DNA of 64,000 nt from Spiroplasma litorale. Lineage in GTDB: Bacteria; Bacillota_I; Bacilli_A; Mycoplasmatales; Mycoplasmataceae. The DNA lies in NCBI RefSeq assembly GCF_001267155.1, contig NZ_CP012357.1, forward strand, positions 372,001-436,000, written 5' to 3'. Made by a program: the position numbers and the translations under genes. The notes beneath the pieces are model-generated. The model was not told the DNA's origin. It saw nothing but the letters and a program-made list of their open reading frames with translations, and did not search any database. Shown here in pieces: positions 11,875 to 13,730 of this stretch; position 1 is the first letter of the stretch; the number at the start of each line of letters is the position of its first letter.

Positions 11875-12034
11875 ATATAAAATAAATAATTAATGATAAA
11901 ATATTATTGATAAATTTAATTTTATGCTATGAGTGCTATTTAAATGCACAAAAATAGTGTATAATAAATATATGTTTTGGTGTTTATTATGCTTAAACAT
12001 TAAAATTTAATTTATTAGAAAGATGGTGCAAGAA

Positions 12035-12601
12035 ATGGCAAGTTCAAAAAATGGAACTGACAAAGCAGCGATAAAAAGAGCTGCTTCAAATAAAAAAAGA
12101 GTTGAGCATATTCAAACAAGAAAAAAAGTCAGCGACCCAAAACCTGTTAAAATCCCAAGTACAGTAGCTAAATTATCAGAGGGACAAGCTAAATTTATTT
12201 GAGAAAAAACAGATAATGTGTCTGCAACTAATTCTGCTATTTACAGACAAGATGTAGCCGGAGCAATTATTAAAATTAATGAATTTAATCTTGAGTCTGA
12301 ATTTGGTTGAGTTTTCGCATTAATAGACGCAGAAGGTGAAGTTGATGATGTAAACAACATCGTAGCAATGCACTGAATGAACGCAAAAGTTAAACGTAAA
12401 CCTTTTGAACAATGAACAGCTGTAGTAACAGGTGGTAAAGATGTTACTGGTTTATTTAATTACAAAAAAGAAGTAAAAATTCATGGTATGACATTGGCTA
12501 AAACAAGAAAAACTGTTTTATTCCAACCATCAGTGGTTGAACCTAAGAAAATTAATATTGAAATTAGAGATACTATGAATCCAACTCAAACTAAAAAATA
12601 A
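12035..12601 (+). CDS. Unknown protein with degenerate HNH-endonuclease-like domain
   Basis: 188 residues; start chosen at 12035 because 'agaaagatggtg', almost a full anti-16S complement, ends six bases upstream; an ATG at 12023 lies inside that site. The first 45 residues are basic. From about residue 75, 'IYRQDVAGAIIKINEF', 'EFGWVFALIDAEGE', 'DDVNNIVAMHWMNAKVK' follow the plan of HNH nucleases of the kind D.aGA.i..YG..s.fGWeiDHI.P..GG.d...NLq.lHW.NN..K. The catalytic Asp-His pair is replaced by Ala-Leu, so nuclease activity is unlikely. TATAAT at 11960-11965 may be its -10 box and a palindromic terminator follows. It is likely well expressed given its near-perfect ribosome binding site. Confidence 0.7.
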
Positions 12602-12604
12602 TAA

Positions 12605-12632
12605 AAAAATATTTACATATGTAAATATTTTT
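12605..12632 (+). terminator. Terminator of the HNH-like gene
   Basis: Near-perfect palindrome AAATATTTACATATGTAAATATTT followed by Ts, starting three bases after the stop codon; nothing else in the gap explains it. Confidence 0.8.
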
Positions 12633-12638
12633 TTATTA

Positions 12639-12644
12639 TATAAT
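12639..12644 (+). promoter_or_regulatory. -10 box of the candidate structured RNA
   Basis: Perfect TATAAT seven bases before the first hairpin of the RNA candidate. The -35 region overlaps the upstream terminator and is weak (TTTACA at 12612-12617 has too long a spacer). Confidence 0.5.
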
Positions 12645-12650
12645 TATATT

Positions 12651-12779
12651 GTCCGTAAGGACACCAAGAATATTTGTTATTCTTAACGTTTGTGTGAGAT
12701 TTTTTAAAACCGCTCAATAAATAAATATTTCCTTTCTCATGCATTTTATAGCGGGTGGAAGTATTTTTTTTTTTTTTTT
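12651..12779 (+). ncRNA. Candidate structured RNA or attenuator leader upstream of miaA
   Basis: About 120 bases with dense pairing and no ORF. It opens with GUCC-GUAA-GGAC (12651-12662, a GNRA-type tetraloop), then AAGAAUA/UAUUCUU (12666-12672 with 12678-12684), enclosed by ACAC/GUGU. The 3' part has ACCGCU (12709-12714) pairing with AGCGGGU (12750-12756), and a terminator stem AAUAUUUCC/GGAAGUAUU (12724-12732 with 12757-12765) followed by 16 Ts. The two 3' pairings interlock, as in attenuators or pseudoknots. A TATAAT at 12639 would start transcription at its first base. The 5' hairpins remind me of Firmicute ribosomal-protein leaders, but I cannot confirm a known family. Confidence 0.6.
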
Positions 12780-12803
12780 GTTTAAATAAAGTGTGAGGTA
12801 TTT

Positions 12804-13730
12804 ATGAAGCCGATAGTTGTAATTGTAGGACCGACTGCAAGTGGTAAAACTGATTTGTCTATAAAAATAGCAAAAAAATTTAATGGAGAATGTATAAACG
12901 CAGATTCAACACAAATTTTTAAAGGTACTGACATTGCAACAAACAAAATATCAATTGAGGAAATGCAAGGAATAAAACACCATATGATTTCAATAAAAGA
13001 AGTTAATGAAAATTATTCTGTTGCGGAATTTCAAAAAGAAGCAAGAGTTATAATTGATAATTTATTAAAGGAAGACATAATGCCAATTGTTGTTGGGGGA
13101 ACTGGCCTTTACATAAATGCTTTAATAATGAATTATAACTTTAATAATAAAGATCATATAAATAATTATTCAGAACAGTTTAGTAATTTAGATAATGAGA
13201 GCTTATGAAAAGTTTTATATAAAATTGATGAGAAAGAAGCCAATAAAATACATCCTAATAATAGATATAGAGTTTTAAGGGCGTTAGAAATAAACGAATT
13301 AAATAGTAGAAATAAATCAAGTATTATTAAAGATAATAAAAGTTATTATTATAAAAATATTATAATAATTGGATTAGACCCAATTCGAAATGAATTGTAT
13401 GATAAAATTAACGATAGGGTCTTGAATTTGATTGAAAAGGGATTGTTTGAAGAAATTATTGAGGCATATGAAAAATGCTCAAAAAATGAATTATCTCAAG
13501 CCCTTAAATGTATTGGTGGTCCTGAAATAATTAAATACATTAATAATCAAATATCATACCCTGAATCAATTGAATTAATGCAAAAAAATAATAGACATTA
13601 TGCACGAAGACAACTGACTTGATTTAAAAACCAGTTAAAAGATGTTAATTGATTTGAATATACATATGATGATTTTGAAAACATATGTGAAAAAATTTTG
13701 CTTTTTTTAAAAAATAAATTGTTAGATTAG
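12804..13730 (+). CDS. miaA: tRNA dimethylallyltransferase MiaA
   Basis: 308 residues. Residues 9-16 are the P-loop GPTASGKT; 'INADSTQIFKGTDIATNK', 'IVVGGTGLYINAL' and 'NNRHYARRQLTWFKNQ' are MiaA motifs for substrate binding and catalysis. The enzyme adds the dimethylallyl group to A37 of tRNAs reading UNN codons. Shine-Dalgarno 'gtgaggt' lies between the T run of the candidate upstream RNA and the ATG, so miaA expression may depend on read-through of that terminator. The rpiR gene follows nine bases after the stop. Confidence 0.95.

Follow-up and report, generated by a model that had tools for sequence, protein, structure and literature searches.

The window, by which we mean the whole stretch of 64,000 nucleotides analysed here, carries on its forward strand a compact structured RNA of roughly 120 bases lying between a gene for a 192-aa protein and miaA. 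Genes were called with code 4, in which TGA is read as tryptophan, and the frames are open under that code. An initial annotation, made from the sequence alone, had named the downstream gene miaA, and its product indeed matches TIGR00174 (1.6e-77) and PF01715 (4.2e-71); the start codon in the window sequence is the ATG at 12804. In what follows, g1 is the genus of the window, the other g-numbers are further genera and G-numbers are single genomes. The features of the locus are:

12023..12601, + strand: upstream gene, 192 aa, directly 5' of the RNA in 18 of the 20 g1 genomes, in G175 and in G264
12639..12644, + strand: candidate -10 promoter element TATAAT of the RNA, at a conserved position across copies
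12651..12772, + strand: structured RNA, conserved core (model match 12651-12772, 133 bits)
12651..12662, + strand: P1, 5'-terminal hairpin GUCC-GUAA-GGAC, starting six bases past the TATAAT
12666..12684, + strand: P2, hairpin AAGAAUA-UUUGU-UAUUCUU (arms 12666-12672 / 12678-12684)
12691..12699, + strand: P3 5' strand UGUGUGAGA, partner 12735-12743
12710..12714, + strand: P4 5' strand CCGCU, partner 12750-12754
12715..12722, + strand: conserved unpaired loop CAAUAAAU between P4 and P5, [ACU][AU]AUAAAU in nearly all copies
12724..12732, + strand: P5 5' strand AAUAUUUCC, partner 12757-12765
12735..12743, + strand: P3 3' strand UCUCAUGCA, partner 12691-12699
12750..12754, + strand: P4 3' strand AGCGG, partner 12710-12714
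12757..12765, + strand: P5 3' strand GGAAGUAUU, partner 12724-12732
12764..12779, + strand: 16-T run, with P5 a putative 3' end or partial terminator
12804..13730, + strand: miaA (dimethylallyl-tRNA transferase)

Every element that the initial annotation had listed was found in its place in the sequence, namely the TATAAT, the GUCC-GUAA-GGAC hairpin, the second perfect hairpin, the two interlocking 3' pairings and the 16 Ts followed by miaA. Its list of helices was nevertheless incomplete, as it did not contain the 9-bp helix P3 (12691-12699 / 12735-12743). The RNA fold of the window copy has a z of -2.65, and the longest hairpin in its minimum-energy fold is P5. A search of the own genome for further copies of the RNA returned just short or weak AT-rich matches.

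The addition of P3 defines the topology of the fold. The 5' strands of P4 and P5 lie between the two strands of P3, while P4' and P5' come after P3', so that the strand order reads P3 P4 P5 P3' P4' P5', that is, A-B-C-A'-B'-C'. The ABCABC pattern has been named the pseudotrefoil, a primitive pseudoknot of genus 1C, and was recorded in 51 sequences versus 1688 of the simple ABAB type (PMC3390330). The order of P3, P4 and P5 is identical to this pattern, which denotes a topology and not a family. We infer that all three helices coexist in one molecule, and the linkers, with 2-3 bases between P4' and P5' and 8-10 bases from P4 to P5, pose no obvious obstacle to such an arrangement. As a separate observation, the RNA core of the g8 copies (L065-L078) contains an alternative 10-bp hairpin, UGGGGUUAUU/AAUAACUCUA, which would compete with P3 and P5; it was seen only in g8 and, by eye, is not kept in other genera.

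Covariance models and DNA search were applied to 320 genomes of the order and detected the RNA in 41, namely every one of the 20 g1 genomes, 20 genomes in five other genera of the same family, and one MAG of another family. Within g1, DNA search detected it in the 19 other genomes with 81-98% identity over up to 123 bases. The covariance model R1 extended the distribution to four more genera of the family (g4, g5, g6 and g9), R2 to all 14 genomes of g8, a genus corresponding to the S. citri-type clade, and R3 to G264, the MAG outside the family. The RNA is thus present in every g1, g8 and g9 genome searched. A 42nd match, in G068 (E 0.002), was dropped, as it lies in a coding region and is devoid of the core. 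No genera beyond these carriers came to light in 395 genomes drawn from across the class. Likewise, R3 did not detect the RNA in 20 RNA-less genomes of the family (g2, g3, g7 and g10-g12), its best matches there being, where checked, coding sequence or without the core. Finally, a DNA pattern of the core, run on 84,980 named species, hit 16 loci; three of the records belong to Spiroplasma (S. poulsonii, S. phoeniceum), and the other 13 loci were taken as chance, judging from the organisms in which they occur.

Within the window's genus, unpaired bases are conserved as much as paired ones, and covariation restricted to g1 is uninformative because the RNA is too conserved there. We therefore rely on comparisons across genera. 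In a 22-sequence alignment, 99.3% of the cells in the five helices were paired and 15 pairs were double-changed, against 4.3 +/- 1.6 in shuffles and 0-4 in slid controls. Since this alignment had been fitted to P1-P3, the arms of P3, P4 and P5 were re-registered by script and by hand with g8 and G264 included, which gave 21 distinct rows. After re-registration, 97.0% of the cells were paired and 12 of the 22 pairs were double-changed, it being understood that the arms were partly picked by best pairing, a bias that affects the paired cells more than the double changes. Slid controls reached 35-50% paired cells with 0-5 double-changed pairs, and in 500 shuffles the double-changed pairs averaged 4.9 with a maximum of 9. 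The helices, including the interlocking pairings that the initial annotation had pointed out, are hence kept in relatives; the loss of helix conservation that it had named as a refutation was not observed.

Each of the three predicted, mutually crossing helices is supported by covariation, with double changes at four of eight pairs in P3, two of six in P4 (two cells only) and six of eight in P5. P3 reads UGCGUGAG/CUCAUGCA in g1 and UGUUUGGG/CCCAAGCA in g8, and P5 reads GUAUUUCC/GGAAAUAU in g1, AUAACUCU/AGAGUUAU in g8 and GCGCUUCC/GGGGGCGU in G173. P4 is nearly invariant as CCGCU/AGCGG, with UCGCU/AGCGA in G175, and is therefore the helix for which the evidence is thinnest. Both 5' hairpins vary in a similar manner: the P1 stem GUCC/GGAC becomes GUGC/GCAC in g9, its tetraloop switches between GNRA (GUAA, GCAA, GAAA, GAGA) and UUCG/UUAG types, and P2 is remade as GAUUAA/UUAAUC in g5 and ACGUU/AACGU in g8 in an alignment made partly by eye.

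The Rfam covariance-model search that the initial annotation had proposed, carried out with Rfam 15, gave no match at 12651-12772, the best score at E<=10 being STnc410 with 11.3 bits versus a threshold of 50; the copies of six divergent relatives did not match a family either. Furthermore, we found no description of the RNA in Rfam or in the open-access papers searched. Several known RNAs share some of its traits. The preQ1 riboswitch classes are likewise small pseudoknotted RNAs placed before a tRNA-modification gene, with a terminator-like U-run; the RNA described here is instead larger, has three interlocking helices, persists without the gene and has no Rfam match. The T-box motif is AGGGUGGNACCGCG, and GGGUGGRA beside AGCGG, together with ACCGC, resembles it. 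A T-box leader was nonetheless rejected: the motif order is reversed, the UGG at the start of P5 is absent in g8, Rfam gives no match and, unlike in T-box systems, the gene downstream is not an aminoacyl-tRNA or amino-acid gene. The suggested likeness of the 5' half to ribosomal-protein leaders did not hold either, as no Rfam leader of this kind matches and the downstream gene is miaA.

The MCS4 RNA of Mycoplasma capricolum is 125 nt long and described as U6-like. Close to ours in length, it is a small and stable RNA of a mollicute, a comparison by description only; a difference is that our RNA was undetected in g2, g3, g7 and g10-g12, which may include the group of M. capricolum. The bacterial small SRP RNA is also a short RNA gene of housekeeping type, but identity with it was rejected, as a distinct SRP RNA is encoded elsewhere in the genome (G000:C1:7067-7154, 56 bits). 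Judged against Rfam and the papers searched, we rate the RNA as a new family, of a general kind that is already known but unusual in its fold.

The 42 copies inspected have a -10 element 6-7 bases ahead of where P1 begins; it reads TATAAT or TAAAAT, or GATAAT in G173. The -35 region is not conserved among copies. A promoter scanner returned no -35/-10 pair using the TATAAT at 12639 and nothing above chance; the promoter claim therefore rests on the conservation of the -10 element, which points to a candidate promoter of the RNA's own at a fixed position. We also noticed a palindromic stretch, AAATATTTACATATGTAAATATTTTTTT, at 12603-12636 of the window, a terminator-like hairpin of the upstream gene which overlaps the place of the RNA's -35.

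The 3' end takes two forms. A T-run directly follows P5 in g1, g4, g5, g6 and g9. In g8, P5 is found without a long T-run, and in most copies a separate hairpin with a T-run (for example, CUAACA..UGUUAG-UUUUUU) follows about 20 bases on. Such a separate terminator stands after the RNA in g8 and in G264, while g1 has only P5 and the U-run. Judged by sequence, the RNA would thus have a 3' end independent of the downstream gene in g8 and G264. Moreover, a promoter-like TTGAAA-N16-TAAAAT stands before many g8 miaA genes. The window and its closest relatives, instead, have some 15-40 bases between T-run and miaA start, which is too few for a promoter, and there miaA must therefore be transcribed through the RNA. 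Seven g1 and three g9 genomes (L016, L020, L024-L028, L061-L063) further display a long, nearly pure A/U hairpin that uses the T-run as its 5' arm and extends to just before the ribosome site; g8 and the window's close relatives lack it.

miaA lies directly 3' of the RNA and on the same strand in 38 of the 41 carriers, the exceptions being G194, G175 and G264. The RNA is retained in these three genomes, where it is uncoupled from miaA, and accordingly does not always stand upstream of the gene that a cis-acting miaA leader would regulate; two of the three, G175 and G264, are MAGs of 85% completeness. In G194, the RNA (153703, minus strand) and miaA (200631, plus strand) are 47 kb apart, and the RNA is still 93-95% identical to that of linked close relatives. 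There, the RNA, its terminator and the usual upstream neighbour stand together before a thyA/folA-like pair (names by eye), and miaA lies on the opposite strand behind a transposase-like gene (by eye), preceded by a form similar to the TTGAAA-N16-TAAAAT of g8. At the break between RNA and miaA (L132, upstream of miaA), we observed an IS3-type transposase-like frame, and a short piece of the RNA's terminator remains on the miaA side. In G175, no miaA was detected; the 192-aa gene is still upstream and a tRNA-Gly comes after the RNA, a tRNA whose place in the window is 0.9 kb past miaA. In G264, the RNA with its own terminator precedes a different gene, on a contig of 4.7 kb that could be foreign to the bin, and miaA is on another contig. 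The MiaA of this MAG is divergent (30-38% identical to the others), and its RNA is 88-90% identical to most of the g8 copies compared.

On the other hand, 17 genomes of the family without the RNA, from six genera, were tested for miaA, and none has it. On the 16S tree this joint absence needs only about two joint losses, each of which could be explained by a single deletion. Should g2, g3, g7 and g10-g12 comprise Mesoplasma, the comparison with that genus proposed by the initial annotation would not be feasible, since these genera have neither the RNA nor miaA. In addition, the P4 core CCGCU/AGCGG is intact in every linked copy and mismatched in two of the three uncoupled ones (A-A in G194, A-C in G264), a hint, from two cases, of relaxed selection after the loss of a cis role.

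The tight linkage, the joint absence and the decay of P4 favour the main rival to our preferred reading, in which the RNA would be a cis-acting miaA leader, riboswitch-like or protein-sensing. Its core may then sense a signal (e.g., dimethylallyl diphosphate, an i6A-containing molecule, tRNA or MiaA) and might govern a choice between stopping at P5 and the U-run, or at the g8 terminator, and reading through into miaA. A terminator immediately after the core, the lack of promoter room before miaA in the window's close relatives, and the aptamer-like build of the core, compact, pseudoknotted and conserved in its loop bases, also speak for such a leader. However, the RNA persists in the three uncoupled genomes, inspection by eye showed no core-terminator alternative or antiterminator pairing conserved across clades, and past the terminator miaA in g8 apparently has a promoter to itself. 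We regard such a miaA leader as possible yet rather unlikely.

We instead favour, with moderate confidence, a spiroplasma gene for a structured RNA in its own right, with a second role as the miaA leader in part of the lineages, because the RNA occurs in three uncoupled settings, g8 has a separate terminator, and by eye we saw no switch pairing common to the clades. Where the initial annotation had left the choice between an attenuator and a separate small RNA some 120 bases long, the same uncoupled genomes and the g8 terminator thus lend more support to the latter; the attenuator fares less well, despite the missing promoter room in close relatives and the absence of miaA from 17 of 17 RNA-less genomes. 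According to this model, the RNA would be transcribed from its own promoter with the conserved -10 element, probably starting at the G of P1. P1 and P2 would cap the 5' end as small hairpins, and the 3' two thirds would form a compact core of three mutually interlocking helices, presumably coexisting. The 3' end would be generated by P5 and the U-run in the window's genus or by a separate intrinsic terminator in g8. Where no promoter precedes miaA, as in the window, polymerases reading through a partial terminator would also yield miaA mRNA, so that one transcription unit may supply both the small RNA and a leader. The long A/U hairpin between U-run and ribosome site, found in ten genomes, may offer a cut site for the read-through transcripts. 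The RNA would act in trans, presumably within an RNA-protein particle or as a regulator.

A more specific and still tentative proposal is that this new RNA is tied to tRNA modification, either sensing the isoprenoid/i6A state and controlling miaA, or serving as a trans partner of MiaA or the translation machinery, with the ABCABC core as the binding site.

Two further explanations fit the data poorly. A plain terminator and promoter region before miaA, whose helices have no other role, is very improbable: P5 followed by 16 Ts does look terminator-like, and P5 is the longest minimum-energy hairpin, but this explanation needs neither P1-P4 nor the conserved loop bases nor the genus-wide identity of 81-98%, it is contradicted by the covariation of P3 and P4, and the P5 of g8 is kept by double changes despite having no U-run and a separate terminator. 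A self-cleaving ribozyme or other catalytic RNA is equally hard to credit, for although small ribozymes often have helices that interlock and unpaired bases that do not vary, there is no Rfam ribozyme match and no obvious conserved cleavage site, and P1 sits at the predicted first base.

Few non-coding RNAs are known from bacteria whose genomes are very small, and our findings add to them one that is apparently undescribed and under strong constraint; they also back a rare pseudoknot type by cross-clade covariation rather than by a single structure. Should the RNA respond to a signal on behalf of miaA, we know of no earlier RNA switch on this gene; if it acts in trans, it would represent a housekeeping-like RNA lost together with miaA in two mollicute branches. 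An RNA-seq study of S. diminutum and S. taiwanense speaks against an independent RNA gene in so far as the passages considered list no highly expressed non-coding RNAs other than tmRNA and RNase P RNA (PMC5726471). The same passages do not name SRP RNA either; short RNAs may therefore have been lost in that dataset.

Two minor observations concern the surroundings of the RNA. The 192-aa gene (also at L173:1515-1925) stays with the RNA even without miaA, as in G175 and G264. Its product has a basic N-terminus in g1 and the invariant motifs EFGWV and VNN..A.HW.N, and gave no match in Pfam, NCBIfam or PDB. We considered this protein as a partner of the RNA and, given the lack of a family and a poor model (pLDDT 39.6), drew no inference. 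Lastly, G184 carries a second copy of the RNA (G184:C1:651121-651241, L083) in front of a miaA copy broken over two frames, 11 kb from the intact RNA-miaA pair.
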